From: Crambe crambe
Lineage: Eukaryota; Porifera; Demospongiae; Poecilosclerida; Crambeidae
Direction of reading: 5' to 3'
Length of the DNA: 64,000 nucleotides
Assembly: GCA_963924555.1 (NCBI GenBank)
Contig: OZ004584.1
Location: forward strand, 7,749,001-7,813,000
Within the stretch, counting starts at the first letter, position 1; each line of letters opens with the position of its first letter. The position numbers and the translations under genes are program-made. This document shows, piece after piece, positions 22 to 60,582 of the stretch. The notes under the pieces are model-generated. The model saw only the letters and a program-made list of their open reading frames with translations, was not told the DNA's origin and made no database searches.

Positions 22-2390
22 GTCTACTTTCTGCTGTTGGTGACCTAAGTGCCACTGCACTGGACTCAGCCATCTCTCTCACCTGGAACCCTCCCTTCAC
101 CTTGGATATCACTAGTGTCGACCCTGACATCACCTACAGAGTGGATGTGATCAACTCCACTTCATCACAAGTGATACACTCACAAGGAGGGATCACTGTC
201 ACACAATACAACTACACAACTTCACTGTCACCTGAAAGAAGAGCATGTGATGTCTTCAAATTCACAATCACACCAGTTAACATAGTTGGGAATGGCAACA
301 ATTCTAAAGGTTTCCTTAATGTTGGTGAGTGAATGGATAAACCCATAATGCATGCCTATACAATACCTTCTGTACACAGTTCCTTCTGTCCTGAGTCATG
401 ATGCCAACCTAATGAATGGATCATTTTTATATCATATAAGGATGGTAAGTATACCATGTACGTAGTTGTATGGCAAGAACTATAGTAGCTATTAGACTAC
501 AGACCAGTAGCTTGGTATCATTTGGCAGAGTCTGCAAGCAGTCTATTCTGTGTGTAATTTTTGATCATGCAGTCTGCCATGATTTGTGGAGTGAATGTCA
601 TGGACATTTCTATTTTGAACTATGATGATGAAGGAATTAATGCACAAGATGTGATAGTCACTGTCAATGATAGTGATCGTACTATTATTGAGATCACAAG
701 TTCCAGCCTGATACTGAATCGTCACTACAATGTAACACTTAATGTCAGCAACAGTGCTGGATCAGACACTATAAATCTGACACTGAGTAGGTTATAATAT
801 TTGTTTGGAGTCTTGTTGTTAAAATTTCATTGCAGGTACACATGATGTTCAACGTACTGATATGGAAAACTCCACAGTCACTATATCTTATGTTGAGAAT
901 ACCAAAGCCAAAGGAGCACTCTGTATCTTGATCTCTGTTCATGATAGACGCGTGGATTTTAACTCATCTCTATTTGTCTTTATACGAAGAAATGAAGAAC
1001 TGTCTATTGCAATGCCACATTACTTGAGACCTGGACAGTATGATGTTATTTCTTATGACGTGGAAAGTAATGGAAAATTACTACCTGGTGTTGGTTATCC
1101 AGCATACGTTCAGAAGATCAGTGTTGATCAAACAGGTGTAAAAATTTCTTTTCATCTTCCCTTGATAATACTATTCTTGTGCAGGGTCAGTTCCTGTCCC
1201 TACATCTCTTCATTTTGAAAACTGTGGCGTGAGTCACAGCACTGAGTCTGGAAATATTCTAGCATCATGTGAATTCCCAAGTACTTCAATGGCAAGTGGT
1301 TTTCAGATAATTCTTCAGTTCAATGACCCAGCAAATGTTGAGAGTGTTCAGAGAGTGATGGTGGGTCAGACACTTGATCGCAACACTTCAGTCTCCATCA
1401 GTGTGAGCAGGAGTGGGACCTATTATGCCACAATATTTGCAATACTAAATGAGACAATATTGGATAAGTTTCCATCATATTCAAAGGAGTTTACAGTGAA
1501 TATCCAAGGAACTGACCAAGGTCAGTGTATAACTAAATAATTATACTTTCAATTCATAGAAATGTAATTCGTTTTTCAATACTAGATGGAACAGAGACTC
1601 TTTCACCAGTTACAGGAAATGATACTGTGCCAAAAGACCTATTGATTGGTAAGCTACAATACTATGTGAAAATATTTGAGGTTGCTTCCTCTCCTCCACC
1701 ATGTGGTGGCAGAATCACTTAGCTTTAAGTAAGGTTATATGGACTGTTGTCTGTTATTATAGAACATAATTCAATTCCATTCTGTTATGAAAACATTAAT
1801 TTTTTTCCTACATAGTTGTTTATCAGCTTTCAAATACAGCTTTGCTATGTTTATTTACAGAGCAATCACATGACTGTGCATGCATGCACATGTGATTGCT
1901 GAGTACAAATGCCTGCTTGTGGTAAACATACTAACAAACATTGTATAGGTGTAGGTATAGGAGTTGCTGTTCTCATGGTAACTGCAATAGTATTAAGTGG
2001 AACTGTGATTTTCTTATTTCATAAACAAAGTTCAAACAAAGATCCTAAGTAAGTAGTTGTAGTCCACATGAAATAAGCCACTGTATAATGTGTGTTACTT
2101 GATCTGACAGTTCAAAGAAGAAAAGTCAGAATGTGGAGTTCCAATTAGATCCAAATGGAATGGCCACAAGTTCCTCTTCAAGAGTCATGTATGCAGAAAT
2201 AGCAGATCCTCCCAGTGCCTTCAATTACACACAGTGTCCAGCTTATGAGACTACAACTGAAGTGGTCAAGCATGACTATGAGGAAGTGAAACTCTATGGG
2301 AATTTAGACATTCCCACAACACATGAAGCCTATCAACTCACAACATGTTCTGCTTATGGAGTCCCAGAGCAGTCAACAACCTCAAGTTAA
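22..2390 (+). CDS. Type A receptor A1 (Ig/FN3 family), 5' end outside the window
   Basis: The 3' part of a type I membrane receptor gene; leader and Ig exons lie upstream of the window. Exons from paralogue comparison: 22-324 (FN3-like, LTWNPPF core, ends near VNIVGNG), 380-444, 573-786 (second FN3-like), 836-1135, 1185-1520, 1586-1648, optionally 1681-1728, 1949-2048 (transmembrane), 2111-2390 (tail and TAA). Splice phases agree at every joint and no stop interrupts the frame. The acceptor used elsewhere before the 1185 exon is intact (GCAG, then GGTCAG). The linker exon 1586-1648 (DGTETLSPVTG) is shared only with A4. The tail reads YAEI where most copies read YEEI, and keeps YETT, YEEV, YGNL, YQLT and YGVP. 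AATAAA occurs at 2421 and 2441. Function (surface recognition with tyrosine signalling) is inferred from architecture. Confidence 0.8.
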
Positions 2391-3993: not shown

Positions 3994-6900
3994 ATGAAAG
4001 TGATTTTGATGCTGTGCTCTGTGTCTGCAATATTACAACCAGGGAACTCATCAGGTAGCTACATTGTGAAAAATCAGTGGTTGTCTTGGTTGCATGATTT
4101 CATTTTCTGCATCATTGATTTCAAGGAAATATACCACTGGCTGCTCTACATTCCAAACTATAATAAATTAGTGACAGCAATTGCATTAAAGAGCAAGAAA
4201 ATGCTTGAACTGAGATAACCAAACTGGGTTAAACCAACCATCTAGTTTTGAAGTGATAGTGTTATTATGCATACACGTACATGTGGTTGCACAACAAGAC
4301 AAACAAAAATAACAACAACAACAAAACAATCTGATGGGCATTATTAAGTGCAATAATGCCAAAAGTGCTAGACAAACAGCCAACATGTATAAGATATTGG
4401 TATGCACCAAATTAATTCGAAGCATCTTTATCATTACATATGGTCTATGTGAGCTTTTCCCTACACATAATAGAAAGTGTACAGTAAAGAAAATGATGCC
4501 TGCATTTAAATTTGGCCCTTAACTTGCTCAAAACTTACAATATTTCTATATTACCTAGCTACCGGCCCTTCTATTGGCAATTAACCCCGTATCAATTCAT
4601 CCAAGGGAAGGATGGTGACATTTATAGCTAGTCTCCTGTCAAGAACTGGATGTGATTGATCAAGTCCTTGATGCTTATATATATTATTATAAAGTTCCTT
4701 CCTTTGGTTTGGCAACACTAGTCTAATATAAAATATGGAATATTATATGACAGGTTCAATAATTTGTAATTATTTCATAATACTGATGTTGTGTATTAAT
4801 TTTGTAGATGTACTAATTCTCAATGGTCCTCCTGTGTCTTATGTTGGTGCTAGAGCCACTTTTGCCTGTTCTGGTGAAGATATTGTGAGTGTGCAGTGGC
4901 TGGTGAATGGAACACTAGATGATGGTCTCAACATGAATTTGGCATCTGAGTTCAGTCAGATAAGGCGTGTGGGTGACCTACTCATCCGTGATGTTCTTAT
5001 GGAGTACAATGGGATCACTATCCAGTGCAGAGCTAATTCCAGTTCTGAAAGTATCACATACTCAAATAACATCACACTACTAGTACAAGGTTGGTTATAC
5101 AATCAATATGCATGCAGCTGCTATATTAAAAGTCCCTTCCTCCTTTAATTTTAGCATATTGTGTGTACGTACATTCTGTACAATAGTAGCTAAACATTGA
5201 CATTGTGTACATAAATAAAATAAGCAGGTGTTAAAAACATTTACAGAAAGGGCATCGAGTAGCTACTCACAGAAATACTCTTGGGTGCTAAGTGTAATGG
5301 AAGCATCCAAGGGTGTTTTCCAGTACATTTTCATTATTAGTATGCACAAAAATTAATGTGTGATAATTGAACAATTTGCAAATAGTGCACATATGTACAC
5401 AGAGAAGTCACAAGATGCTATTGTACTTATTATTTATAAGGTCTACTTTCTGCTGTTGGTGACCTGAGTGTCACTGCACTGGACTCAACCATCTCTCTCA
5501 CCTGGAACCCTCCCTTCACCTTGGATATCACTAATGTTGACCCTGACATCACCTACAGAGTGGATGTGATCAACTCCACTTCCTCACAAGTGATACACTC
5601 ACAAGGAGGGATCACTATCACACAATACAACTACACAACTTCACTGTCACCTGAAAGAAGAGCATGTGATGTCTTCAAATTCACAATCATACCAGTTAAC
5701 ACAGTTGGCAATGGTGACAATTCAGGTGTATCTAAAGGTTTCCTTAATGTTGGTGAGTGAATGGATAAACCCATAATGCATACCTATACAATACCTTCTG
5801 TACACAGTTCCTTCTGTCCTGAGTCATGATGCCAATCTGATAAATGTATCATTTTTGTATCATATGAAGATGGTAAGTACCATGCATGCAGCTACTATAC
5901 AGCAAGTGTAACTGCAGCTGCTAATCTCAATATCTCAGAAAGAGCAGTAGCTCTCAAAAGAGAATGTAGCTAATCACCTCCAATACCTAATTAGTAAAAT
6001 ATGGTGATTGCAGTGTATGTGGTTATAGAGGTATATTTTTCGTTCCTGTTGTTTTATCAATGCAGTCTGCCACTGTTTGTGGAGTGAATATCATGGATAT
6101 TTCTGTTTTGAACTATGGTACTGAAAAAATCAGCATACAAAATGTGATAGCCACTGTCAATGGGAGTGATCGCAGTATTATTGAGATTACCAGTCCCAGC
6201 CTGAAACTGAACCGTCACTACAATGTAACGCTTAACATCAGCAATAGTGCTGGATCAAATACTATAAATCTGATACTGAGTAGGTTATGGTGTTTGTTTG
6301 GAGTCCTGTTGTTTATTCTATGGGAAACACTTCATTGCAGGTACTCATGATGTTCAACGCACTGATATGGAAAACTCCATTGTCAATATATCTTATGTTG
6401 AGAACACCAAAGCCAAAGGAGCACTCTGTATCTTGATCTCTGTTCGTGATGAATATGTGGATTTAAGCTCATCTGTATTTGTTTTTGTTCGAAGAAATGA
6501 AGAATTGCTACCACTTAACTTGAGTCCTGGACAGTATGATGTTGTGTGTTATGATGTGGAAAGTAATGGAAGATTGCTACCTGGTGTTGGTTATCCAGCC
6601 TATGTTCAGAGGATCAGTATCACACAAACAGGTATAGAGAAATCATTTCATTTTTCCTTTATTATTCACATCTAAATTCAGTTTTCATCCTAAGATCTCA
6701 TCTTAAAAACTGTGGTGTGAGTCATAGCAATAGAAATATTCTAGCATCATGTGAATTCCCAAGTACTTCAATGGCAAGTGGTTTTCAGATGATTCTTCAG
6801 TTCAATGATCCTGTAACTGTTGAGAGTGTTCATAGAGTGGAGGTGGGCCAGACCCTTGATCGCAACACTTCAGTCTCCATCAGTGTGAACAGAAGTGGGA

Positions 6901-7847
6901 CCTATTATGCCACAATATTTGCAATACTAAATGAGACAATATTGGATGAGTTTCCATCATATTCAATGGAGTTTACAGTGAATGTTCAAGGAACTGACCA
7001 AAGTCAGTGATAATAATAGTACTTTGTTATACTATAAGTGCATGAAAGTGTTTAGCTATATATATATATAGGTGAGGTTACTTCCTCTCCTCCACCATCC
7101 AGAATGGATGTGCCACAGAACCACTTAGCATTAGGTAAGGTTATAAGGTTATAACTATGAGGTATGGCTAGCTACTAACTAATAGCTTCTGTGTGAATTC
7201 TGCGTGGATATGAATGGCAGCAAGGAACTATTATGTTGTCTGTATAAGACTATTCTGTTATGGAAACATTTCCCCCATGCAGGTCCATTAAGTTATGATA
7301 TATCAGCTTGTTATTTATTTTCAGTGCATGTACACATGATTGCCAAGTATAGCTAATTAGTTATTAGTATTATGAGCTAATGCATGTGGTACAGACCTTG
7401 TAACCATGCAGCCTATACATTTTGTATTATAGGTGTAGGTATTGGAGTTGCTGTAGTCGTGGTAACTGCAATAGTATTATGTGGAACTGCAATCCATAAA
7501 CAATGTTCAAACAAAGCTAGGTAAGTAGCTCTATGGCTTATAATAACATAAGCCACTGTGTAATGTGTGTTGACAGTTCAGAGAAGAAAGTGGAGTTTCA
7601 ATTAGATCCAAATGGCAAGACCACAAGTTCCTCATCAAGAGTCATGTATGAAGAAATAGCAGATCCTCCCAGTGCCATCAACTGCACACAATGTCCAGCT
7701 TATGAGACTACGACTGAAGTGGTCAAGCATGACTATGAGGAAGTGAAACTCTATGGGAATTTAGACATTCCCACAATACACGAAGCCTATCAACTCACAA
7801 CATGTTCTGCTTATGGAGTCCCAGTACAGTCAACAACATCAAGTTAA
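3994..7847 (+). CDS. Type A receptor A2, complete (about 655 aa)
   Basis: Ten exons: 3994-4054 (signal peptide, MKVILMLCSVSAILQPG), 4808-5089 (Ig-like: Cys in TFACSG, Trp in VQWLVNG, Cys in TIQCRA), 5441-5752 (FN3-like), 5808-5872, 6066-6279 (FN3-like), 6341-6631, 6682-7002, 7072-7134 (stalk, rich in Ser and Pro), 7433-7520 (transmembrane, GVGIGVAVVVV), 7577-7847 (tail, TAA). The lengths sum to a multiple of three and the joined frame is open. The transmembrane exon is 12 nt shorter than in A1. The exon at 6682 uses a TTCAG acceptor because the usual CAG-GGTCAG site has changed; the frame still fits. The tail begins SEKKVEFQLDP, then VMYEEI and the other five tyrosine sites. AATAAA lies at 7856. 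Predicted cell-surface recognition receptor; the ligand is unknown. Confidence 0.85.
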
Positions 7848-10943: not shown

Positions 10944-13900
10944 ATGAGAGTGATTTTGATGCTGTGTTCTGTATCTGCAATATTACAACCAGGGAACTCA
11001 TCACATTCAGGTACACTGTGAAGTAAGATATGACTGGATAAGATTGATCATATTTCCTTTTATCAATCCTCTACAATTTTTTTCCATTTCACAGAAATGT
11101 TTTCCCCTATATGTAATTGTACACTTGGATTTCATGGTTGATGATGTTGCCTTGAATGGTAAGATTCCCCTTCCTTTTCTGGTCTTTATGGAATCTTACA
11201 CATGATGAAGTCTCTTGTTAACATCATATAATTATAGTCTTTTCTGCCTCCTTGACCAATAATGCAGTGTAGGCAGCCCATAGCCTGAGCAGTTAACTAC
11301 TTCTGTTCTGTAGCAAGAAAATTTTCTGTCTCTAAAGAAATAGCTAAAACATATCTAAAATGGTCATTGTGTACGTATTTCTAGTGCTCAGTGGTCCTAC
11401 TGTGTCTTATGTTGGTGCTAGAGCCACTTTTATATGTTCTGGTGGTGGAGATATTGTGAATATCCAGTGGTTGTTGAACGGAACACTAGATGATGGCCTC
11501 AACATGAATGTGGTGTCTGAGTTTGGTCAGATATCACGTGTTGGTAACTTACTCATCCGTAATGTCCTTATGGAGTACAATGGGACCACTATCCAGTGCA
11601 GAGCTAATTCCAGTTCTGGAAGTATCACATACTCCAATATCATCACACTACTAGTACAAGGTTAGTTGTACAATACACATATGGCCCATGCATAAGATAA
11701 TCCCCCACTGATTTTCAGCAACATTAGAGTTGAGATAGTCAGTGATGGTGATTGAACATCACATCACACGGTAGCAAATGGCTATGATTAATGTGAACAG
11801 TTATGTATGCACATGCACACGTTGATAACTTACACACATTGAAATTCATTAGGTCAACTTTCTGTTGTTGGTGATCTAAGTGCCATTGCACTGGACTCAA
11901 CAATCTCTTTCACCTGGAACCCTCTCTTCACCTTGGATATCACTAATGTCGACCCTGACATCACCTACAGAGTGGATGTGATCAACTCCACTTCCTCACA
12001 AGTGATAAAATCACAAGGAGGGATCACTATCACACAGTACAACTACACAACTTCATTGTCACCTGCAAGAAGAGCATGTAATGTCTTCAAATTCACAATC
12101 ACACCAGTTAACATAGTTGGCAATGGAGACAACTCAAGCATATCTAAAGGTTTCCTTAATGTTGGTGAGTGAATGGATAAACCCATAATGCCTGCCTATA
12201 TAATACCTTCTATACACAGTTCCTTCTGTCCTGAGTCATGATGCCAACCTAATGAATGGATCATTTTCATTCCATATAAGGATGGTAAGTACCATGCAGC
12301 TATATGGCAAGTGTAACTGCAGCTGCTGATCTCAATACCTCAGAAATAGTTTCCTTCTACTTAGAAAGAGAAAATCACGTGATCATATAGGACATTTCTG
12401 TTTTGAACTATGATGATGAAGTAATCAATGTACATGATGTGATAGTCACTGTCAATGATAGTGATCATACAATCATTGAGATCACAAGTTCCAGCCTGAA
12501 ACTGAATCATCACTACAATGTAACACTTAACATCAGCAATAGTGCTGGATCAGACACTATAAATATGAATCTAAGTAGGTTATGATGTTTGTTTGGAGTC
12601 TTGTTGTTTATTCTGTGGGAAACACTTCATTGCAGGTACACATGATGTTCAACGCACTGATATGGAAAACTCCACTGTCAATATATCTTATGTTGAGAAC
12701 ACCAAAGCCAAAGGAGCACTCTGTATCTTGATCTCTATTCATGATGGACGTGTGGATTTTGACTCATCTGTGTTTGTCTTCATTCGTAACGAAGAAGTGC
12801 CTATTTCAATGCCACTTTACTTGAGGCCTGGAAAATATGATGGTGTGTGTTATGATGTGGAAAGTAATGGAAGATTACTACCTGGTGTTAGTTATCCAGC
12901 CTATGTTCAGAGAATCAGTATCACCCAAACAGGTATAGAGAAATCTTTTCATCCTCCCTTTATTATTCACATCTAAATGTACAGGGTCAGTTTTCATCCT
13001 TAGATCACTTCATCTTGAAAACTGCGTTTGTGAGTTATAGCAATGGAAATATTCTAGCATCGTGTGAATTCCCAAGTATTTCATTGGCAAGTGGTTTTCA
13101 GATAATTCTTCAATTCAATGATCCAGCAAATGTTGAGAGTGTTCATAGATTGATGGTGGGTGAGACCCTTGATCGCAACACTTCAGTCTCCATCAATGTG
13201 AACAGAAGTGGGACCTATTATGCCACGATATTTGCAATACTAAATGTGGATGGGTTTCCATCATATTCAATGGAATTTACAGTGAATGTCCAAGGAACTA
13301 AACAAGGTCAGTGATACATAATAGTACTTTGAAAATTGTACTATACCATGTGATATACGTAGTTGAGGTTATTTCCTCTCCTCCAACATCCAGACTGGAT
13401 GTGTCGGCACAGAACCACTTAGCATTGGGTAAGGTTATATATAGCTAGCTATGAGGTGTGGCTGCTAGCTACTAACAGTCTCTGTGTGAATATGAATGGC
13501 AGCAAGGATTTATAGTGACTGTTGTCTGTTTATTAGAATGCAATCCTGTTATGAAAACGTTTTCCCCACTTGCATAGCTAGTTGTTCTTTCGATAAATTT
13601 ATTTTCAATCACATGTGCATACACATGTGATTGCTTAGTAGCTAGATATATCATGCATGTGGTAAACATAATATTTGTATCATAGGTGTAGGTATAGGAG
13701 TTGCTGTTGTCATGGTAACTGCAATAGTGTTATGTGGAACTGTGATTTTATTATTTCATAACAATGTTCAAGCAAAGATCCTAGGTAAGTTAGTATGTGG
13801 TCCACGTGTAATAAATCACTGCATAATGTGTATCATAAACATGTCACTTACAGTTCAGAGAAGAAAAGTGGCATTTCAATTAGATCCAAATGGCATGACC

Positions 13901-14146
13901 ACAAGTTCCTCATCAAGAATCATGTATGAAGAAATAGCAGATCCTCCCAGTGCCATCAACTGCACACAATGTCCAGCTCGTGAGACTACAACTGAAGTGG
14001 TCAAGCATAACTATGAAGAAGTGAAACTCCATGGGAATTTAGACATTCCCACAACACACGACTCACAACATGTTCTGCTTATGGAGTCCCAGAGCAGTCA
14101 ACGACCTCAAGTTAATACATACAACAAACAGATGGCAATTCCCTAA
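10944..14146 (+). CDS. Type A receptor A3, complete frame with compensated indels and shortened tail (about 653 aa)
   Basis: Exons: 10944-11010 (signal peptide), 11385-11660 (Ig-like), 11853-12164 (FN3-like), 12220-12284, 12391-12574, 12636-12932, 13004-13306, 13363-13428 (stalk), 13686-13784 (transmembrane), 13854-14146. The second FN3-like exon starts about ten codons late, losing a Cys. A 1-nt insertion near 13025 would break the exon if it were spliced at CAG-GGTCAG (12985); using the TTAG acceptor at 13001-13003 restores the frame but replaces ENCGV by KTAFV. A 1-nt loss at the end of the transmembrane exon is cancelled by a 1-nt gain at the start of the tail exon. A 10-nt deletion near 14059 replaces the YQLT and YGVP end with an unrelated C-terminus. 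YEEI, YETT and YEEV remain; YGNL has become HGNL. Confidence 0.75.
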
Positions 14147-15040: not shown

Positions 15041-16700
15041 TTATCAATCAATCAATCAATCAATCAAGCAAGCAATGTAAAGCCCAATGGGCATATGGAA
15101 AATAAACGGGGAAAAAAGAATGTCAAGTGACTGAGGGAGGCTACTCAGGTGTAACATAAAAATGATTTATAACAAGTGATAAGTCAGGTTCTGATGATGA
15201 CAGAGCAGAGAGGATCCTGTCTACATTCATGAGGGAGGAGTGAGTTGTGATATAGTGTTCAAAGTACGAATTGCCCTCCAAATCTGACACATCACATCAA
15301 GGGCAAGGGCTGGAACCATATGAGGGCCTGGTCAGCTCCCTATACAGGTTCTGTAAGGCAGTGGTGCCGGCTGTGCCTCTATCCAGGGCTGCGTCCCAGA
15401 GTTTTATCCAGCTAGACTCCTTAGCAACCGCAGCTGCTATTCTGGTACTCGTGTGCTCTTGACAGGATGATAGTAGCAGTTCCATGTCTCTATTAGTCAC
15501 TTCACTCTTCAGCTCAGCTGTAGAACACATCATCCCTAGGGTCTTCTTCACCAAACCATTCAAACCCAGACGAGATTCAAGGAACTGGGACCCCTCTACG
15601 ATCTGAAGTGGAACTTCACTGGGTGTGTCTCCCATGAGTGAGAAATAGATGACCGAGGGACTCTTCATTTGTGGATGCACGTTGGATGAAGAGGAGTTTC
15701 CGCTGTAGTATGCGTGCTGTCATTGAGGGCCACTCCAGAGCGAGTCTAGTAGCCCTGCCAGAGTGATGTCGGGGCAGTTTCAAGATTCGACGGCCAATCT
15801 CAGCTTGGAAAGATTCAAGCTTATCCAATAGAGATTCAGTCAAGTACCAGTTTTCACTCCCAAATAGCAGGACTGGGATGACACAAGTTTCAAAGATGGC
15901 TCTACCAGAGAGAGGATTTAGCTTTCCCTGGAAACCACCCATTGCTCCAAATGCAAAGAAGCTACTCCTTGCCCATCCAATTGCAGTGTCGATTGACTTG
16001 TTTGCTGACAGGTCCCAGGACCACCAATATCCTAGGCACTTGGCAGAGGCAACTGGAGGGAGGGCCTGTTCCTTGATTGTGCAAATTGGCTCAGCAGGAG
16101 CTCTCTGGGATGAGACAATCACTACTTCACATTTAGATGCATTCAGGGATAGAGCATTTGTGGCTACAAACTCCTCCACTCTTCCAATTTGGGAGTCTAT
16201 ATAGGGTGTCCCTGCTAGTACATAGTGTCCTACATGAGCAAAGCCCCCTGCATATAACCCAGCCACACATGGACCCAGCTGGTTCTTCTCTAGATGTTGT
16301 AGGAGGGGGTCCAGTATGAGCAGGAACAGGGTGGGGGAGAGGACCGAGCCCTGAAGGAGGCCACGCTCCATGGTGTGAGGTTCAGAGGTCTTCCCATTGA
16401 GTAGGACACAACTCTTTGGGGCCGTGTACCAGGATCTCAGCAATCTCCATGTCTTCCCCATGATACCACACTCATATGCACGTTTCAGCAAAACAGGGTA
16501 TTGCACTGAGTCGTAAGCCTTTTGCAGATCGAAGAAACACAGATATGCGGTGTCTCCTTCCCGTGCAAACTTGGATACAGCTTCAAAGGTGGAGAAGGTG
16601 GCATCTATACATGAGTTGTTCTTCACGAATCCCGTTTGGTTCCTATGGGGAATTCCTCGTTCAGTAAGGATGGGCTGGAGTCTGAGTAGCAGCTATCACA
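15041..16700 (-). mobile_element. Non-LTR retrotransposon (LINE) remnant, 5' truncated, reverse transcriptase defective
   Basis: Minus-strand frame of 336 residues at 15616-16626, continuing by a 1-nt frameshift into 15297-15680. Reverse transcriptase landmarks in order: FFDLQKAYDSV (motif A with its Asp), GLLQGSVLSPTLFLL (motif B), then the place of the catalytic F/YADD box, which reads LYAGGFAHVGHYV with both Asp gone. Downstream comes the usual thumb and C-terminal part (CVIPVLLFGSENW, RRILKLPRH). Homologous residues extend upstream to about 16690 (LQPILTERG), where stops appear, so the 5' end is truncated. The element's 3' end (lowest coordinates) ends in a TGAT-type tetranucleotide tail, seen on the plus strand as ATCA repeats at 15045-15065, a form of LINE tail. 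Surely immobile on its own. Confidence 0.85.
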
Positions 16701-17781: not shown

Positions 17782-17788
17782 ATAGTAC

Positions 17789-44293: not shown

Positions 44294-45336
<1,043 letters not shown>

Positions 45337-45923: not shown

Positions 45924-46037
45924 TATAGCTACGTAGCTACATTCCCCACATTCAATCCAAGATAAATAAACATTGAATTTGGGAGAGACCATAGCTGTAA
46001 GATTCTAAATTTGGTGGAATCCCTCTCTCTTCAAGTC

Positions 46038-47300: not shown

Positions 47301-47357
47301 AAATTCATAACGTCAACTGTAAACACTTTCTGTATGGAGAATGTGTGTGTGTGCGTG

Positions 47358-47546
<189 letters not shown>

Positions 47547-47870
47547 GCTCTATCTTTTCTTTTGTAGGCTGGTTATACCTTTGATACCTCAAAATTTAAA
47601 CCTTCCAAACTGCTAGTTGCCATGCATATTCATAATGAGGAAAGCATACTCTATTCAACAATGGTATAGCTACAGTGGCTTATGGATGGTATCTATAACC
47701 GTATTAGCTAGCTACAGGTACTGTATTCAAAACTTAAATTCAATGTTTACCAAGTTGGAATATATAGCTAGAGTAGAAGGTGTCTATACATGCCCAGTAC
47801 ATGTTCTATTTTTTTGTTTATTCCTCTCGGTCTCTCAGTATAATTTTTAATTTAGAATTTAGATCTAAAG

Positions 47871-50800
47871 ATGGAATCAAAGATGATAATATTATACATC
47901 CTGTGTACCCTACTGAACTCAGGTATGATAGCTATTGTAATATAGTGTGGAGATAGTCCAACCATTATGCCACATAAAACACTGTTACAACTTTTGAATA
48001 CAGTGCATGGAATAGCACACCTGAGAAGCAATCACCACTCGGCATACTATATTGCCACTCTAAGTGGCTGCCAACATATTGTGCAGTGAATTTTATGCCT
48101 CAACACAGACTTGTGTCAGGTAGCTACAGAAGATATACTGGAGACTGAAGATCTGAAATTATAGCTAGACACCAAGGCATGGATTCTATGGGATTAGAAA
48201 CCTTCAGGCCCTTGGAGGATTGTGTGCATGTGTAGTATAACTCTATGTGCAGTGCTAATACTTTCATAATTTCCAAATCTGGTCACATATGTATGCATGG
48301 CACATGGAAGTCTCAACCCACCCAGTAAAGAATATAATTGGTTCCTACTCCACTGATGAGACCTTCTTCATTCAATAAAATTTTTGCTGAGTGTTGAGTA
48401 ATTTGTGAATTAGGTCTGTGTTTACTTTGTAGGAGTACCTCTAATACCTCTCACTGGTCCTGATGTGTCTTATGTTGGTGCTGAAGCCGTTTTTACCTGT
48501 AATGTGGGTGATATATATGATACTGTGCAGTGGCTGGTGAATGGGACACTAGATGATGGCCTCAACATGAACATAGTATCTGAGTTCAGTCAGATAACGC
48601 GTGTGGGTAACCTACTCTTCCGATATGTCCCTATGGAGTACAATGGGACCACTATCCAGTGCAGAGCTAATTCCAGTTCTGGAGATATAACCCACTCCAT
48701 TATCATCACACTACTAGTACAAGGTTGGTTAACATATGCATGCATTGCAGTGGCGGCTCAGGGTGGGGGCGAGAGGGACTAGAGCCCCCCCCCCCCCCCC
48801 ACTTTTTTTGACCCATTGTATAATTGTCTAACTGCAGCAGTAAAGTCTACTGTCTAGTCACTAGCTAATGATGTTGCATATTAGTGGCTGCATTAATGTT
48901 CATAAGGTTATACAGCTGATTGAAAGAAATGTAATCCCCTCCCTAATAGAGTATTGGAATTTGTGGAGAATTAGCCAACAATGAGTCCTCCAAAAAAAAG
49001 TAGATTCCTCCAAAAAAAAAAGAAAAAAAAAAGTACGGCCACGTGATCAGTGAGCTTCCCTCCCAAAGTGAAATTCCTAGATGAAACCCTAATTAGTGAC
49101 TGCATTATTGATTGGCCACAACATGTAGAGAATCAAAACCTTCATGGATATCATTATAGCTCATCGGGAGTAGTCATCGATGCGCAATTTTTGAGCCCCC
49201 CCCCCCCCACTTTTTGGGGTCCTCAGCCACCCCTGCATTGTGTTATAGCGTACCACTGGCAAGCTCCTATTTATAATGCACACTCACTCCCATGCTTCAC
49301 GTTGATTTCCCTTATGCTCTCTTTCTTGATATTGATTATGTGATTATTATTATAGCTATAATACGTATACATTCTGAAACTACCCATACAATGATTTGGT
49401 ATAGTAAACATACTGGCTCTTAAAACATTCAAAGGCTAAGGTGGTGACAATTAATGCATCGTTCATCTAGGTCTACTTTCTGCTGTTGGTGACCTAAGTG
49501 CCACTGTACTGGACTCAACCATCTCTCTCATCTGGAACCCTCCCTTCACCTTGGATATCACTGGTGTTCACCCTGACATCACGTACAGAGTGGATGTGAT
49601 CAACTCCACTTCCTCACAAGTGATACACTCACAAAGAGGGATCACTATCACACAATACAACTACACAACTTCACTGTCACCTGAAAGAAGAGCATGTGAT
49701 GTCTTCAAATTCACAATCACACCAGTTAACATAGTTGGCAATGGAGACAATTCAAGCATATCTAAAGGTTTCCTTAATGTTGGTGAGTGATCAATGGATA
49801 AACCCATATTATAATTTGATATTATATGTACCTTCTGTGCACAGTTCTTTCTGTCCTGAGTCGTCATGTCAACCTGATAAATGGATCATTTTCATTCCAT
49901 ATAAGGATGGTAAGTATTTACCATGCAGCTACTAATCTCATTGTCTCTGCAGTAGCTGGCTATTTCCCCTTTACTTAGAGAAAATCATGTGACTGTATTA
50001 CCTTTAAAAGAGAGCTAGTGTGCACCTCATACAGCTACACAGTTCACTTACGTTACTGTTCCTGCAGTTACATAAATAAGGACTTTTTTCATCCATGCAG
50101 TCTGCCATGGTGTGTGGAGTGAATATCATGGACATTTCTGTTTTGAACTATGATGATGAAGTAATCAATGCACAAGATATGCTAGCCACTGTCAATGATA
50201 GTGATCGCACTATCATTGAGATCACAAGTGCCAGCCTGCAACTGAATTATCACTACAATGTAACACTTAATATCACCAATAGTGCTGGATCTAACACTAT
50301 AAATCTGAATCTAAGTAGGTTACGATATTTATTTGGAGTCTTTTTTTTTTTACTCTGTGGGCAACACTTCATTGCAGGTACACATGATGTTCAACGTACT
50401 GATATGGAAAACTCCACTGTCAATATATCTTATGTTGAGAACACCAAAGCCAAAGGAGCACTCTGTATCTTGATCTTTGTTCATGATGGACGTGTGGATT
50501 TTAACTCATCTGTTTTTGTCTTCATTCAAAGAAATGAACAAATGCCTATTCTATACTTGAGGCCTGGAAAATATGATGTTGTTTGTTATGATGTGGAAAG
50601 TAATGGAAGATTACTACCTGGTGTTGGTTATCCAGCCTATGTTCAGAAGATCAATATCACCCAAAAACGTATGAGAATCTCTTTTTATCCTATGCTATTA
50701 TTATTCACATCTAAAATGTACAGTGTCAGTATTCATCTGTAGATCACTTCATCTTGAAAACTGCAGTGTGAGTTATAGCACTGAGTCTGGAAATATTCTA

Positions 50801-51890
50801 GCATCATGTAAATTCCCAAGTACTTCAATGGCAAGTGGTTTCCAGATGATTTTTCAGTTCGATGACCAAAGAAATGTTGAGAGTGTTCATAGAGTGATAG
50901 TTGGTGAGACCCTTGATCGCAACACTTTAGTCTCCATCAGTGTGAACAGAAGTGGGACCTATTATGCCACAATATTTGCAATAGTAAATGAGACAATATT
51001 GGAAGAGTTTCCATCATATTCAATAGAGTTTACAGTGAATATCCAAGGAACTGAACAAGGTCAGTGATATTATGGACTGTTTTTGATTAGTGAAAATGTT
51101 ATGATAACATTATTATAGTTGAGGTTGATTCCTCTTCTCCACCATCCAGAATTGATGCGGCACAGAATCACTTATCATTGGGTGAGGTATATAGCTGGCT
51201 AGGCAGTCTCTGTGTGTATATGCTTATTCCACTTGCAAAGTTGTTTAGCTACCTCCAATTCAGCTTTTGATAATGTTTATTTTTAGAGCAGTTCAACCAT
51301 GCGTGCAGCAGTGCAATCATGCATGCACATGTGCATGGTTGCATTGCTGAGTATTATTATCAAAAGCCTGCATGTGGTAAACACCTCACAACCAGCCCAG
51401 CATTCTCAACAAACATTAATTTGTATTATAGGTGTAGGTATTGGAGTTGCTGTTGTCATGGTAACTGCAATAGTATTATGTGGAACTACAATTTTCCTAT
51501 TTCATAAACGATGCAAATCAAACAAAGATCCTACGTAAGTAGCTTTGGTCCACATGAAAATAACCCTCTGTAGCTATGATGTGTATCAAAAAATGTCACA
51601 GCTCAGAGAAGAAAAGTCAGAATGTGGAGTTTCAGTTAGATCCAAATGGCAAGACCACAAGTTCCTCATCAAGAGTTGTATATGAAGAAATAGCAGATCC
51701 TCCCAGCACCTTCAACTGCACACAATGTCCAGCTTATGAGACTACAACTGAAGTGGTCCAGCACGACTATGAAGAAGTGAAACTCTGTGGGAATTTAGAC
51801 ATTCCCACAACACATGAGGCCTATCAACTCACAACATGTTCTGCTTATGGAGTCCCAGTACAGTCAACAACCTCAAGTTACGTAATATAA
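47871..51890 (+). CDS. Type A receptor A6, complete (about 671 aa)
   Basis: Exons: 47871-47922 (signal peptide MESKMIILYILCTLLNS), 48433-48723 (Ig-like: VFTCNV, VQWLVN, IQCRA), 49471-49782 (FN3-like), 49845-49909, 50101-50314, 50378-50668, 50724-51059, 51119-51181 (stalk), 51432-51534 (transmembrane, VAVVMVTAIVLCG followed by basic HKRCKS), 51602-51890. The frame is open and a multiple of three. The leader differs from A2-A5 and resembles A7, so A6 and A7 form a subgroup. One donor follows AAAAC instead of ACAG but keeps phase. The stop has moved: after TTSS the protein adds YVI before TAA, giving a new C-terminal Tyr. VVYEEI and the other tail sites are present. The most intact type A copy in the window. 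Confidence 0.87.
48748..49235. mobile_element. Inverted-repeat element (488 bp) in A6 intron
   Basis: Starts CAGTGGCGGCTCAGG and ends with the reverse complement of CAGGGGTGGCTGAGG; CATTG lies on both sides (48743-48747, 49236-49240). Two poly-C runs (about 48785-48800 and 49197-49208), each followed by ACTTTTT, sit near the ends, in direct rather than inverted order. The termini are hAT-like but the 5-bp duplication is not, so I leave the class open. Confidence 0.65.
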
Positions 51891-52409
51891 GCAACCAGTT
51901 CCAAAACATACCACAAAAACACACTGTTTTCATAACTACACTCATTAGTATAGAAGATTTTTTTCTGGTACACTATTCAGTAAAGAGTGCATCCCTGACC
52001 ATTTAGTTTAATTACCTTATAATTATGCTGACTGAATAAACAGTACACCCTTCCCTATAAGGTAAGGATTAATCTCAGGAAACAGTTTCAATGTAAGTTT
52101 TATGGCAGTTGCTACTAGCTTGTAGTTTTAGATATAACTAGCTATTATGGTACATAATGTGGAAGGGTAACAAATTTAAACATCATCAAATATTTCAAGT
52201 GGAGTCATTCATCAGCATACTTGCAGGCAGTATACCAAGTATATTATAGGCAATGCCACACCCATCTTGTCTAACTGACCCTTCCATGCAGTAGCGGGGG
52301 GAGGGTGCTAAATACGTGACCAGTCGCTCCACCACTGGAATATTGATCCTCTAAGCCTCTGAGTATAATAATGTTAGCTGTAAGTTTTGATATTGCATTC
52401 AGATCTGAG
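51891..52409. other. Intergenic spacer A6-A7
   Basis: The A6 3' region (TTTTTTCTGGTACACTATTC, then ACTGAATAAACAGTACACCC with AATAAA near 52034) followed by about 300 nt of unique sequence. No gene seen. Confidence 0.5.
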
Positions 52410-55400
52410 ATGAAATCGCTCAAACTGAAGATGGTAATATTATGCATACTGTGTACCCCACTGAATTCAGGTATCTTACGTATGTACAAGTAATTAGAAA
52501 CATGAGGGCTGTAATTAATCAGTCCCAGGTAAAAATCAAATAGCCACTTCTTAAACATATTAGACTAGCTATCTTGTCATGTCTAGCACTATTGATTGGT
52601 ATTAATTTAGTTATATATTATGCAGTTCTGGGTTAGGCTCTATAGGGGTTTAGCCTCAATGAGCATTGGTTGCTTCATCCTGGGAAGAGTGGAGTGCTTT
52701 CAATAGGCTTATCTAATGATAATGTACATTATAGTGAGGCACAAATTCTTGAAAATCTGCATGATGAAGCTACTGGTACATTTATCCTCCTTAAATAGAC
52801 CCACATTGGTACAAATAATATTCAGTATCAGAAATCTCCATTGATGTTGACTCCCCAGGATATTCTTGTTGAAATGTCAGTGGTTTGTTTCATAAAGCTA
52901 ATTTTTATGAGAACTAATTCTATTGATGTTAGCTGAGAGAAGTCAGCAGAATATATAGCTTGATATGCTGTACTGTTTGTTGGTTTTCAGACTATATGTA
53001 GCTAGGATGAACTAGAAATTGTATTTTCTAGTAATGAGGTGTAGTTAGTTACATGAATAAACAATTGTTGGTCATCCATGTGGGAAAACCAGCCACTCAG
53101 ATATTTTTTTATCTTCTATATTTTTAACCCTTTGACTGATGCTCTATAGCTAGGTCCTACGTATGATGCCTGAGAATCGGCTCTTATTTATCTAGCATTT
53201 TCTTGAGAAAGAGAATAAACTACATACAGTATTTCCAGTCATCCCACACACTATTAGTACTGGTAATTTCAAGTGCTGGTAAGATAGCAAGGTAGCGTAG
53301 ATAACTTATTGGGTTTGTATTTCTAAGCACTTAGTTTTGACACCATGGGTCTCGATCTGCTGTTGCACAAAGTTTCAATGGAACTTCAGCTGATAATATG
53401 TTTTGCTATAAGCGGTCACATCATCAGTTGATGATCAATTATAAATTGGAGTCATGTAATAATGTGTGTCATATATTTGTAGGAGCAACTCAGCTAACTC
53501 TCACTGGTTCTACTGTATCATATGTCGGTGCTACAGCCACTTTCACCTGTTCTGGTGGTGGTAATACTGTGAGTCTTCAGTGGCTGGTGAATGGGACACT
53601 ATTGAACAGCTCCAGCATGGATATAGTGTCCGAGTTCAGTCAGATAACGCATGTGGGTCATCTACTCTTCCGTGATGTCCTCAAGTACAATGGGACCACT
53701 ATCCAGTGCAGAGCTGATTCCAGTTCTGGAAGTATCACATACTCCAATAATATCATACTACTAATACAAGGTTATAGCTAGCTGATTATCATACAAACAT
53801 TATTATACAAACATGGCTTACAACCTTAGCATCTATGCATGCAACTATAGCAATCATAGATGATATGAATTATTATAGAGTTGCAAATGGAGCTAGTAGT
53901 ATGTATCTTAAAATGTTTCAAGGTTGGTTGATCACTTGAATCAGCTAAATGCTCTGTAGTAGCTCTTGGACCCCAACCTCAGCTGAGGTGTTACCATGCA
54001 AGTATATATAGGTCTACTTTCTGCTGTTGGTGACCTAAGTGCCACTGCACTGGACTCAACCATCTCTCTCACCTGGAACCCTCCCTTCACCTTGGATATC
54101 ACTGCTGTTGACCCTGACATCACCTACAGAGTAGATGTGATCAACTCCACTTCCTCACAAGTGATACACTCACAAGGAGGGATCACTATCACACAGTACA
54201 ACTACACAACTTCACTGTCACCTGAAAGAAGAGCATGTGATATCTTCAAGTTCACAATCACACCAGTTAACATAGTTGGCAATGGAGACAATTCAAGCAT
54301 ATCTAAAAGTTTCCTTAATGTTGGTGAGTGAATGGATAAACCCATATTATAATATACAGTATCTTCATAAATCTGTACACAGTTCCTTCTGTCCTGAGTC
54401 ATGATGCCAACCTGATAAACAGATCAAATTTTTCATTCCATATAAGAATTGTAAGTCTGTATGGCAAGTGAAGGTATAGCTGCCAATAGACTACATCTCA
54501 TGAACTAGGTGAGAGTAGCTCTAGAAATGACCTGGAGGGCTTATAATAAGTGATTCACCAGTGCATGAGAAAGAACATAGCAACTAGCTATAGTAACTAC
54601 CAGCACTAACACTCAACCATGCAGCTTGGGGACAAATTATTTCAAAAAGAAGTATATACTTAACTTTAGCTAGCTATTGTTGAAATCTGACTTTATATAG
54701 TAGCTGCATCCATGGTTACGATAGTTTATGTAGCTATGTAACCCCCATCCAGTTATTAAGATCATGTTTATAATAATTATAGCTATTATAATAATTATCA
54801 GTTTGTCTCTTCTTCCTTTGCTGTCATATATGCAGTCTGCCATGATTTGTAGAGTACATGTGCTGGGCATTTCAGTTTTGAATTATGATGATGAAGAAAT
54901 TAGTGCAAAAGATATACTAGCCACTGTGAATGTTGATGATCGCACAGTCATTGAAGTTACAAGTTCCTACTTGATACTGAATCGTCACTACAATATAACA
55001 CTTAATGTCAACAATAATGTTGGATCAAACACTTTAAATCTGATGCTGAGTAGGTTATGATATTTTCTTGCAAACTTTTGTTTAAACACTTTTGGTATTT
55101 CAGGTACATATGATGTTCAACGCACTGATGTGGAAAACCACATAGTAAATATATTTTATGTTGAGAACACCAAAGCCAAAGGAGCATTCTGTATCTTGAT
55201 CTTTATTCGTAATGGGCATGTGCATTTTGAGTCATTTGTGTTTGTCTTCATTCGAAGAAATGAAGAACTGCCTATTTCAATGTTGAGATCTGGAATGTAT
55301 AATGTTGTCTGTTATGATGTGGAAAGCAATGGAAGATTACTACCTGGTGTTGGTTATCCAGCCTATGTTCAGAGGATCAGTATCACACAAACAGGTATAG

Positions 55401-56744
55401 AGAAATATTTTCATCCTTCCTTGATATTTTTCACATTTAAATGCACAGGATCAGTTTTCATCCGTAGGTCACTTCATCTTGAAAACTGTGGTGTGAGTTA
55501 TAGCACTGAATCTGGAAATATTCTAGCATCATGTGAATTCCCAAGTATTTCGATAACAAGCGGTTTTCAGATAATTCTTCAGTTCAATGACCCAGCAAAT
55601 GTTGAGAGTGTTCAGAGAGTGATGGTGGGTCAGACCCTTGATCGCAACACTTCAGTCTCCATCAGTGTGAACAGAAGTGGGATCTACTTCGCTACAATAT
55701 TTGCAGTACTAAATGAGACAATATTGGATGAGTTTCCATCATATTCAATGGAGTTTACAGTGAATATCCAAGGAACTGAACAAGGTCAGTGATAATAATG
55801 ATACAGACTATAGCTAAGTAAAAATGTTTGATTATAATTATATATAGTCAAAGTTGCTTCTCCTTCTCCTCCATCCAGAATGGATGTGACACAGAACCAT
55901 TTAGCATTAGGTAAGGTTATAAGGCAGAGACACGATCAGTTACCATAGCTAATGTGGTAGAGGATTATATAACTACTAGCAGCTATAATTACCCTCTATA
56001 ATTATGAATAATAGTTAGCAAAGTTCTATATTGTTTATTAGGATCAAAGCTTTTAATTTCTATATATTTCCCCACTTATCATAGCTAGAATGTTTATCAA
56101 ACTTCAAATTCAGCATTGATCATGTGATTGCTGGATACATCTTAATTGGTATCCAAACCTCATTATCTGAATGAAATTCAAAGACTTTTTACTTTGCATT
56201 AATCAGAATATTCATTGAAAATACGTTGTCTCACTAATCTGGACACTTCAATTATCTGAACAAGGGTAACGTATTCAGATTAATGAGGTTCTACTGTAGT
56301 TAATAACTGGTTATTCTATCAACATTATAGGTATAGGTATTGGAGTTGCTGTTCCCATGGTAATTGCAATAGTGTTATGTGGAACTATGATTTTCCTACT
56401 TCATAAGCAATACAAATCAAACAGAGATCCTAGGTAAGTTTATGCGATCCAAATGAAATAAGTCACGTAGCTAGCAATGTGTATCATAAATATTTCGTTT
56501 CTCAAGCAGATCAAAGAAAAGTCAGTTTCAATTAGATCCAACTGTTATGAATAGCACCAGTTCCTCATCAAGAGTCGAAGTAGCAGATCCTCCCAGTGCC
56601 TTCAACTGCACACAATGTCCAGCTTATGAGACTACAACTGAAGTGGTCAAGCATGACTATGAGGAAGTGAAACTCTATGGGAATTTAGACATTCCCACAA
56701 CACATGAAGCCTATCAACTCACACTACGTATGTTCTGCTTATGA
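52410..56744 (+). CDS. Type A receptor A7, complete frame with altered tail (about 656 aa)
   Basis: Exons: 52410-52470 (signal peptide MKSLKLKMVILCILCTPLNS), 53483-53770 (Ig-like: TFTCSG, LQWLVN, IQCRA), 54012-54323 (FN3-like), 54383-54450 (65-nt exon lengthened by one codon), 54836-55049, 55104-55394, 55449-55784, 55848-55910 (stalk), 56331-56433 (transmembrane), 56510-56744. The frame is open and a multiple of three. The tail is remodelled at both ends: the first tyrosine site is deleted (SSSSRVEVADPP where others have SSRVMYEEIADPP), and a small insertion after AYQLT changes the end to LRMFCL with a stop at 56742-56744, so YGVP is lost. YETT, YEEV, YGNL and YQLT stay. Not obviously a pseudogene, since nothing upstream is damaged. 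Confidence 0.82.
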
Positions 56745-58147
56745 AGTCCCAGTGCAGTCAACAACCTCAAATTAATATATTTAGCTACGTATAATAACAA
56801 ACAGATGGCCAAATATCAAAAACAACACATACACACACTGTTTCCATAAATTTCTTCTTCCATTATTATAATGTCTAGAGTATGTCCCTAATATCACCAT
56901 AATATGCCTGCCTGCATGTGATAAACAATTATAGCTAATTCTCATATTTAACCATGCAGCCATCATTCCATTAACAAATCTTTATAGCTATAGGTGTAGG
57001 TAGCTATGGTAACTGGCACAACTCTGCCATGTAGTTATATGGCCTTTGACAATTTGAGTAAAAACATTACAAAGTCATTTTCACATGGTATGTAATTGGC
57101 TATATAGCTAACTTGCTAGCTACATACTCCATTGCAATCCTTGGCAACATCAAATAAACAAAACAGATTATGTAGCTAACTGTAGGAGTTTTCCATGATT
57201 GCATTAGTAGCTATTATGATGATACAACACACTGATCTGGACACAAATTGACCTCTCCTCAAGTCACTACAATAAGAATGGATAATAATAATTTGAGTAA
57301 TTGGAATTGTATTGCTGCAATAGATCGAAGAAGATTAATGTTGATCCATTTAGTATAGAGTGTATAGCTAGCTAGGCATTTGTAGTCAATGGAATTTCCA
57401 CCTATTGGTGACAAAGATTCGAGTGTAGGTCTCTATGCTATTCGTTATATATACTGAGTGAGGGCCATAGGTCATATAAGATAATATTGAAAGGATATCC
57501 TGACTATTGTTTGTGTACATGGATGTGTGGTGGCCAATGGCTCCAGGTAAGGGTAAAGAAGAATGGCAGAATAAGTGAGTGGTAATTATGCTGGGATTAG
57601 ATTTCTATAGCTACCCCTACAGGACTTATTTAATAGGGTAAGGGGTCATCAAACATGTAGCTGCTACGAATAGCTAGCAAGGTAAAGGGTCAACAGTTAA
57701 ACTCTGGAGTAGCTTCTTGCAAGCTATTTTCCTATAAAAAGTTTGCTGCTGCTATGTAGCTATCAATAATAACATGGTGGTGTTGCAATAAGGCACAGCA
57801 TTTTAGTGACATTTGAGCTATACATATGCTTACTTGTGTCTGTGCCCCATCAGAAAGATCCATACAAGACTAGAGTCTTAACATAATTAGCTACATGTAC
57901 CTTCCACACTGCCACCTGAGTGTATCACAAAAAATTGTAGCTACAGAGACGTTTCACACAATATACTGTTTCTGAAGTCATATAGCTATGGATCCTTAGC
58001 TAGTTACCTAATAATTCATAGTGAAGGGTGCACAGTTTTTTCAGTCAGTGTAGGGGTAGACAAACTACACATATAATTGGGAAAGGATGTACTCTACTGA
58101 ACAGTATTATTATACCAGAATAAAATCCTCTGAGTAGCTAGCTAGTT
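56745..58147. other. Intergenic spacer A7-B4
   Basis: The first lines are the remaining type A tail and 3' region (AGTCAACAACCTCAAATTAA). After that I see unclassified AT-rich DNA with many TAGCTA words and no gene. The B leader exon expected here is not found. Confidence 0.5.
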
Positions 58148-60582
58148 ATGAAAACAAAAACAAAAAAACAACAACAACAAAAACAAATGGAGAGGATTTC
58201 AAGTATCCAGAGGATAATAAATAACATGCCATTGGAAGACCTCAACCTTCCTAATGTGACAGCCGCCTACTTTAATGGAAGAGGATTCTTACTTTTCAAT
58301 GATCTCTCCGTGAACTTTAATGAAACAACTGTTCAGTGCAAAGTAAACAATTCAGGAACAATCATTCACTCCAATATCAATGAACTACTTGTGCAAGGTA
58401 TGCCTCAGGTATATGCATGTTGTTTAATACTTTTAGCTCTTTTTAGGTCCACCCTCTGCCGTTGGTTCTCTTAGTGCCACCACATACACTATCTCCCTCA
58501 CCTGGACACCTTCCTTCACCCTGAACATACCGAACCCTGATATCACCTACTGTGTTAGTGTGGAGGTGAACATCACTGCATCTTCATCAGTGACACGATC
58601 AGAATGTGGTATCGCCACTAATGCCTACAACTACACCATCAACCCCAGTGAGGGGTGTGGCTTCTATAGGTTCACTGTGACTCCCATGAACAGACTTGGT
58701 AATGGCTCAGCAGTCACATACACACATCTCATGGAGTGTAAGTTGTCATTCATGCTACTACTGATGTCACCATTATGAAAATTTTTTCTTCAGCTTCTGT
58801 AATGAGTGAGGGAAGACTTGTGCCAGTATCTATAGTTGATGAAGTGTACACTTACAGGATAGTCCTGGTAAGATTGATTGTATTAGCTAAAGGTATGCAA
58901 TGTCCTGTATGTTTTTTTCCTTTTTTTCATGCAGTCTGCTCCAGCATGTGTTAGTGGTCTTGCCTTTGTGGATCGTGATACTGGAGAAAGAATGAATAAG
59001 AGTTTGATAACTGAAAATGCAATAATTACATTTACAAGCGAACAATTGAGGAGGAATCGGCACTACAATGTTACAGTTAATGCTATAAATGTTGAGAGTT
59101 CAGTTGCAACGATTATATCCACTCATGGAATTAAAAATACCACCACTGAAACAAATGGCAGTACTGGTATTAGTATTGAAACTAATTATTTCAGAAATTC
59201 GTCTGTAATTGGAGCACTATATATCTTCATATTATGTGTCAGTCGTGGAGATGTGATTTTTTCTTATCAACCGTTCAATAGAACCGAGTCTCTTGAACAT
59301 AATATACCTCTAGTACCATACTTAGCTCTTGCCTATGATATTGAGAGTGATGGTTTGCTCTATGATGGTGATGGAGTCAGCTTCCCAGCAAGTATCAATA
59401 ACATTTCCAACTATGGAGTTGACCATGGTAAGTCAATAATGTGTGTTCATGTATGAATGTGTGAACAATCTGTGGAAGCAACAGTTAAGAGGGCTTTCAC
59501 AAATGATTTTTTAAACAGTTAGCATTGTTATGATGCTAAGCCCCTCTCCCCCCTCCCCTCTCCCCCCTCCCTAGTGTCATGGGAATGATAAACTATTGAA
59601 GATATACAATCAGAAGTCTTGAAATTTTAACTTTAAATAGAATAATTAGCATCACACCCTCAGGCCCCTCCCTTAGTGTCATAATGATGCTAACTGTTGG
59701 AAGAATCATTTGTGAAAGCACCCCTAAGTGTAAAGTCTGAGGAAGTTGACAGGAACTTAGAGTGTTGAGTGTGTCTGTAGCTGGGATGACTACACAATCT
59801 GGAAGAAGAAAATCCATTCACTTGGATTCACATTCATGATTCTGATGAATTATTTGAAAGTGACATGATCCTCGTGACTTATAACGAAATGGTTTCTACT
59901 AAACAATGATCATTGATAGCTAAGAATAAAGCTCCAGAGTGTTTGTAAAAGCAGTTATAGCTATTGCATTGATTTTTCTACTTGGTATTGTTTTTAGGAT
60001 CCCTTCAAGGAACACCTGACTCTATTGCTTGCACTGTTACCACAACTAAAATGAGTATTTCAGCCCGATGCTCCAACTCAGACCCCACTGTAACTGGATT
60101 CCAAATGATCGTCCAGAGTACTAACCTTGCTGACCTTGCTCGTGTTTGGAGACTTATGATAACTCGTACTAATGATGTTTCATCTCTGATGAGCCTACAA
60201 GTAGAGGTTAGTGGAGAACATCTCATCACCGTATATTCCATTAGAAGAGGAAGCAGGATGGCTTATACTCGCACACCATATCAAACAAGGATGATGATTG
60301 ATATTCCAGTCACCACCTCCACGTCAAGTAAGTAGCAGTTTTTAAGTCACTCACAGAATGTTTCTAGTCTGTTGACAAACTTTGATGAACTCCTGCAGTG
60401 ACATGACTATAGTCATTCTTTTCATTAATAGGTACACGTCCAACTTCTACAAAAAGTGAAGTCAAAGTCATAGCTGGTGAGATCAATATAGCTCTAGTCT
60501 GCTATTATTATTATGTTAATTATATAATATAGTGATTGTTCTTGTGGTGGTGGTGTTGGTGATTTTTGGAGGAATTGCATAG
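58148..60582 (+). pseudogene. Type B gene B4: lacks leader and half the Ig domain, and has no tail
   Basis: Open exons: 58148-58397 (starts inside a CAA-rich run; only the second half of the Ig exon, from ISSIQRIINNMPLED, with Arg at the Trp position), 58447-58737 (FN3-like), 58794-58867, 58935-59427, 59998-60327, 60432-60476 (stalk), 60533-60582. The last exon is a hydrophobic run unlike that of other copies (VIVLVVVVLVIFGG) ending at TAG 60580-60582. The joined frame is open for about 510 codons, but there is no signal peptide and no tyrosine tail. The FN3-like to stalk exons carry no lesion. An open stretch at about 60640-60725 (EKIMNSSLQYRSDNELRVI) might be a replacement tail but does not join in phase. 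Calling it a pseudogene is a judgement. Confidence 0.65.
59490..59728. repeat. Small fold-back element in B4 intron
   Basis: GGGCTTTCACAAATGATT at the left end is matched by its reverse complement at the right end (to 59725), with inner arms around AACAGTTAGCATTGTTATGA. The loop holds a C/T-rich tandem (CCCCTCTCCCCCCT twice). About 240 bp, non-coding, MITE-like. Confidence 0.65.

Follow-up and report, generated by a model that had tools for sequence, protein, structure and literature searches.

A tandem array of genes encoding candidate immunoglobulin (Ig) receptors was analyzed in a stretch of 64,000 nucleotides (the window) at positions 7,749,001–7,813,000 of contig C6, which was taken as chromosome 4 of the demosponge Crambe crambe. 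The genome searched comprised 143.14 Mb in 119 contigs. Reference exons from copies of two subfamilies, A and B, were compared exon by exon using tblastn with the window and its 100 kb flanks (264 kb). This search revealed 11 copies inside the window, all on the plus strand, in the order A1–3/B1–3/A4–7/B4. The exon E-values, mostly 1e-19 to 1e-88 with 1e-5 for the weakest match (a tail fragment), lie far beyond chance. This result agrees with an earlier note on this DNA, which had described eleven same-strand copies of two subfamilies in the same order. The note missed that divergent ectodomains of A and B stand over a nearly identical tail.

The array had been placed at window positions 22–60,582. 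Copies are present there, but the Ig exon of A1 precedes the window and the array extends past 60,582. In the 264 kb region the exon matches form 24 copies (17 A and 7 B) at contig positions 7,719,089–7,912,930, a count which reflects our own grouping and excludes a tail fragment and two relics of B Ig exons. Among these copies one is inverted (7,853,106–7,856,945). Tail matches continue up to 7.968 Mb on C6. The block containing A6 and A7 (window 47,635–58,156) recurs 45.4 kb downstream, beyond the window, with 96.9% identity over 10.6 kb. A second duplicated block of 3.8 kb lies outside the window; its repeat copy is 94.3% identical.

The ectodomain exons follow the order Ig, FN3, D3, D4, D5 and precede a transmembrane (TM) segment and a tyrosine-containing tail. 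Copy A1 (window 1–2387) comprises FN3 (24–326), D3 (567–788), D4 (835–1137), D5 (1211–1525), TM (near 1951) and tail (2109–2387), with its Ig exon at −645 to −367. Copy A2 (4810–7844) contains Ig (4810–5091), FN3 (5443–5754), D3 (6060–6281), D4 (6340–6633), D5 (6699–7007) and tail (7575–7844); its TM segment (near 7435) is 9 nt shorter than in the eight other aligned copies. In A3 (11381–14112), preceded by a leader-like exon at 10944, the D3 match contains a stop and the tail is frameshifted. Copy A4 (38123–41841; leader-like exon at 37314) is dead due to an FN3 frameshift and a D4 stop, with its tail exon (41563–41841) still open. A5 is a lone Ig exon (44011–44295). The exons of A6 (48450–51878; TM near 51434) are open and its tail reads CGNL in place of YGNL. 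Copy A7 (53494–56723) has open ectodomain exons and a tail match that stops at residue 75 of 90.

Within the window subfamily B begins with B1 (22741–27382), which consists of Ig (22741–23019), FN3 (23069–23365), a single D3/D4 open frame from 25616, D5 (26401–26709), TM (near 26965) and tail (27152–27382). Copy B2 (28353–31219; TM near 30839) has open ectodomain exons and a stop in its tail match. All exons of B3 (32417–35285) are open (TM near 34863, tail 35052–35285), and a relic of an additional B Ig exon lies next to it at 32120–32224. In B4 (58205–60329) a truncated Ig match is followed by FN3, D3/D4 and D5, and no tail match was found. Five copies, namely A1, A2, A6, B1 and B3, show no stops in their Ig, FN3, D3/D4, D5 and tail matches. 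Thus, the array does contain the intact, broken and tail-less members that had been described, and duplications together with broken copies bear out the suggested birth-and-death layout. The proposed architecture of leader, Ig, FN3, TM and tyrosine tail was recovered with the exception of the leader, whose exon is clear in only some copies; the aligned start codon of A1 is GTG.

Ectodomain Identity

None of the nine exon peptides tried first reached a curated Pfam cut-off. Among 20 paralogues the Ig domain was matched at E ≤ 0.5 by C2-set_2 (11), ig (9), Ig_3 (6), I-set (6) and Ig_2 (5), with a best E-value of 1.2e-5; the first of these paralogues likewise stayed below the curated threshold. 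Its cysteines are invariant among the paralogues and its tryptophan is almost so. The fn3 family was matched by 11 of 15 FN3 paralogues (best E 0.0029), while three of the 15 matched DUF4945 with a best E-value (0.0004) better than that of fn3. Sequence-profile searches against the PDB gave only weak matches, with a lowest E-value of 0.0092 for Ig and 0.4 for FN3; D3/D4 had no match. The predicted fold of D5 is FN3-like. A structure predicted for the B D3/D4 exon from six sequences was not usable (mean predicted local distance difference test score 32.7). Judged from these matches, the proteins combine an Ig domain with FN3 domains in the ectodomain and would qualify as immunoglobulin superfamily (IgSF) receptors.

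A Tail Module Shared by Both Subfamilies

A and B were compared over Ig, FN3, D5 and tail. Their ectodomains differ strongly: identical residues amount to 36% in Ig, 47% in FN3 and 24% in D5, and the corresponding synonymous divergence (dS) is 1.0, 1.25 and 1.7. The first part of the tail exon is likewise only 20% identical. From just upstream of the YEEI codon identity rises to 89%, with a sharp similarity edge at this codon. The shared part comprises the last ~66 codons of the tail, starting with the YEEI codon and ending at the final sense codon (7647–7844 in A2, 27185–27382 in B1). Over this near-unchanged part dS between A and B is 0.102 (interval 0.052–0.165), compared with 0.097 among A tails and 0.075 among B tails. 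A higher value (0.271, 0.128–0.483), with overlapping intervals, separates the array's A tails from two A copies 2.6–2.7 Mb away. Past the stop codon A/B identity drops within ~100 bases; A1 and B1 share a second similar patch beyond. Since the ectodomains differ at dS 1.0–1.7 and the tail module at only about 0.10, the module apparently moved between A and B long after the subfamilies had separated.

Tyrosine Motifs and Potential Signalling Partners

The array had been likened to receptor families whose tails resemble those with an immunoreceptor tyrosine-based inhibitory motif (ITIM) or activation motif (ITAM). Tails with stops or frameshifts (A: A3, A7, E2; B: B2 with a stop, B5 with a frameshift) were excluded from motif counts and dS. 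The strict ITIM, [SIVL]xYxx[ILV], was detected in nine of 11 readable A tails, the tail exon of the dead copy A4 included, and in none of three readable B tails. The B tails lack it because position −2, which falls just short of the shared module, is Q in B and V or I in A. The ITAM, YxxL/I-x(6–8)-YxxL/I, was absent from all 15 tails scanned (11 A, three B and one from contig C8). The likeness holds for the ITIM in A, and not for the ITIM in B or for the ITAM. Subfamily A can be fairly inferred from this motif to work like ITIM receptors, and with a canonical ITIM in A and Q at −2 in B the two subfamilies may differ in output.

A genome-wide search yielded 135 SH2 matches. One locus on contig C18 reads SH2 (partial), SH2 and protein tyrosine phosphatase (PTP) in that order, the same arrangement as in SHP phosphatases. 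On C5, SH2 domains were also found tightly clustered at 1.41–1.66 Mb, many of them in pairs.

Selection and Recombination

The ratio of nonsynonymous to synonymous divergence (dN/dS) was determined for eight A copies (six for the tail), leaving out E1, E2 and a divergent copy at 7.910 Mb; in the alignments labelled A3 and A4 two rows end at locus boundaries. The Ig exon exhibited the highest dN/dS, with 0.85 (bootstrap interval 0.56–1.34) in A and 0.99 (0.61–1.79) in B. For FN3, D3, D4, D5 and tail of A values of 0.34–0.57 with upper bootstrap bounds below 1 indicate purifying selection, and B FN3 reached 0.42 compared with 0.99 for B Ig. The earlier note had held that purifying selection on the ectodomains would speak against a recognition function. 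Such selection is found on FN3, D3, D4 and D5 of A, as on the tail, and not clearly on Ig. D3 has a dN similar to that of Ig but a higher dS. The dS of FN3 is the lowest among the exons (0.093), which hints at homogenisation in FN3 too.

The most variable nine-codon window lies between the first Ig cysteine and the QW motif, a BC-loop-like stretch in which indels occur as well. In three close pairs amino-acid changes are commoner in Ig (p = 6e-6) and silent changes not significantly so (p = 0.14), with most of the signal coming from one pair. Recombination was detected across nine complete copies. Taken singly, Ig and D4 showed it as well, D5 weakly. It was not detected within FN3, D3 or tail alone (p = 0.07 in the pairwise homoplasy index (PHI) test of the tail exon). 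The copy at contig position 7,838,712 illustrates such exchange: it agrees with A5 at 7/7 telling sites in Ig codons 15–26 and with its sister copy at 11/13 sites from codon 29 on. Apparently, exchange among copies explains part of the diversity. Site models gave p = 0.021 for Ig, 0.032 for D3 and at least 0.19 for the other four exons. These values were not relied upon because recombination was detected and six tests were made.

Contig C66 (23,790 bases) was considered as a second haplotype. Over 12.6 kb it matches C6 7,743,574–7,756,165 at 99.92% identity (six mismatches, two gap openings), while only a 44-base piece of the rest matches the array region. The one open frame tested from this remainder (165 residues) occurs identically on C1 near 132 kb. 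C66 was consequently regarded as a chimera or rearrangement, unusable as an allele.

Relatives Elsewhere in the Genome

A 69-residue tail query produced 64 matches genome-wide. They are distributed over C6 at 7.739–7.968 Mb (24), at 5.0–5.15 Mb (four) and at 6.47 Mb (one), C9 (five), C14 (one), C18 (one), C66 (two) and C8, where 26 distant ones were found. A C8 tail used as query gave 66 matches, some of them fragments, 31 of which lie on C8 at 3.98–5.99 Mb. The C8 tail read retains YEEI, PAY, YEDV and AYGV. At the 2.2 kb locus of this tail an upstream exon passed the curated Pfam cut-off as an Ig domain; another exon tried there had no Pfam match.

Several further regions contain related ectodomain exons. 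On C6 at 6.58–7.34 Mb dozens of FN3 exons among the matches listed are 33–44% identical to the A FN3 exon and, by this similarity, represent a larger related family upstream on the same chromosome. Relatives of the array's Ig and FN3 domains cluster on C13 at 1.63–1.90 Mb; this contig has none of the 64 tail matches. Among the matches listed, fn3 is dense on C9 at 2.34–3.53 Mb, a range that overlaps many tyrosine-phosphatase exons (2.62–3.41 Mb), which suggests a large array of receptor tyrosine phosphatases with FN3 domains. Among the matches listed for C12 the two overlap likewise at 0.32–0.39 Mb.

Proposed Function and Alternative Explanations

We favour, with a probability of about 0.5, the interpretation that the array is a large, rearranging set of demosponge type I transmembrane receptors with variable Ig ligands and a shared tyrosine-based output. 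The Ig domain would bind variable ligands, which might be microbes or the self markers carried by other sponge cells, and the FN3-type domains would form a stalk. Upon ligand binding Src-type kinases might phosphorylate the tail (V/I-x-Y-E-E-I ... Y-E-E-V), which could then recruit SH2 proteins such as the SH2-SH2-PTP phosphatase of the same genome. Gene conversion or exon transfer may have placed the tail of one subfamily in the other, and differing outer parts would thereby report into one signalling route. A function in self/non-self or microbe recognition is plausible, and an allorecognition or microbe-recognition system is our working hypothesis. Some results weigh against this interpretation. 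No exon showed a dN/dS above 1, that of Ig being close to 1, and the detected recombination renders tests for positive selection unreliable. The tail tree, in which the excluded tails were kept as unaltered DNA, does not reject the B tails as a single clade in the approximately unbiased (AU) test (p-AU = 0.29 for six and 0.27 for five tails), so that continuing conversion can only be inferred. An explanation by a single old exon transfer, in which an A-type tail replaced the ancestral B end, or the reverse, before B duplicated, is consistent with this clade and with the PHI result for the tail, whereas the best tree requires three A/B changes, although the 198-base module contains little signal. 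We give it somewhat less than even odds; it bears on nothing but how the tail came to be shared, and its odds do not compete with those of the receptor interpretation.

Two other explanations address the function itself. The family might consist of adhesion proteins that glue cells or matrix, with copy number serving dosage and tissue-specific adhesion and the tail leading to the cytoskeleton or to general kinase signalling. Ig/FN3 ectodomains and the conserved FN3 exon (dN/dS 0.42) would suit adhesion molecules, and the passages of a review considered here see the main roles of sponge IgSF proteins in cell adhesion and in recognition between cells (PMC11999971). The concentration of changes and indels in one Ig stretch, several dead copies, recombination and the ITIM-type tail make this explanation rather doubtful. 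It also appears unlikely that neutral birth and death accounts for the array, with a duplication-prone region multiplying a receptor gene, Ig merely less constrained and conversion homogenising the rest. An Ig dN/dS near and not above 1, the broken copies, recombination, the lowest dS in FN3 and the window's transposase, reverse transcriptase and long AC repeats agree with this idea. However, the other exons and the tail are under purifying selection, amino-acid change is highest in one loop, and the C8 tail read retains its four tyrosine motifs at about half identity. A more far-reaching form of the receptor interpretation regards the array as what corresponds in sponges to the allorecognition complexes of cnidarians and tunicates, a repertoire in which conversion keeps one tyrosine cassette alike across receptor subfamilies of unrelated specificity. 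A, with the ITIM, and B, having lost it through a single residue, would then give opposite outputs; we consider this form improbable.

Comparison with Known Systems

Vertebrate paired receptors (KIR, LILR, CD300) lie in arrays of same-strand genes that undergo birth and death, and they bear ITIM tails. Their pairs share ectodomains and differ in tails. In the sponge array, by contrast, the ectodomains differ and the tail is shared. Gene conversion is reportedly mentioned in a paper on CD300A/C (PMC12447643). Aggregation-factor domains are of the Calx-beta type. The Pfam scans of the array exons tried found no aggregation-factor-type domain, which distinguishes the array from the sponge aggregation factor genes, a family discussed for sponge allorecognition in the part of a 2025 review considered here (Grice et al. 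2017, as cited in PMC12065747).

The Hydractinia Alr complex is described in passages of PMC11999971 as an IgSF gene cluster with 41 members, and Alr candidates carry ITIM/ITAM-type motifs according to passages of PMC12065747. The array resembles this complex in its clustered IgSF genes and ITIM-type motifs, that is, in layout and motif, and differs from it in having its tail as a shared module, with no ITAM in the 15 tails scanned. The fester co-receptors (FcoR) of the Botryllus fuhc locus, as portrayed in sections of the same review, possess an Ig-type ectodomain, a TM segment and a long tail in which ITIM, hemITAM or core Y-x-x-I/L/V motifs occur (PMC12065747). Ig-type ectodomain, TM segment and ITIM-type tail recur in the array. 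The FcoRs, however, contain a sushi domain, and their motifs switch with allele or splice form, whereas the array combines Ig with FN3-type domains and its motif difference lies between subfamilies. Given that the likeness is one of layout and motif, we would not claim membership in the Alr, FcoR or vertebrate paired-receptor families.

No description of the array family was found among the titles and abstract openings listed in searches of open-licence papers. In the sections of the 2025 review considered, the proteins that are candidates for allorecognition in sponges, cnidarians and ascidians are described as not conserved, ITIM-type signalling is said to unite systems from cnidarians to mammals, and no sponge receptor of this kind is named (PMC12065747). 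A sponge Ig receptor array with ITIM tails would take this signalling logic one phylum deeper, and the array provides named loci. The shared tail under divergent ectodomains would moreover offer a clean case in which paralogous receptors keep a common output as their specificities diverge.

Other Features of the Region

Between A3 and B1 the window contains an RVT_1 reverse transcriptase (15619–16692, minus strand, E = 2e-19) and an ISXO2-like transposase (20358–20702, plus strand, E = 7e-11). Long AC/GT dinucleotide runs, recognized from repetitive open frames, occur near the lone Ig exon A5 at about 44,910–45,330 and 47,340–47,560. Directly past the last copy of the window lies an ankyrin-repeat exon (61995–62303, minus strand). 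Upstream of the array, at C6 7,693,691–7,697,719, a tandem repeat was observed whose unit, judging by the offsets, measures about 111 bases.

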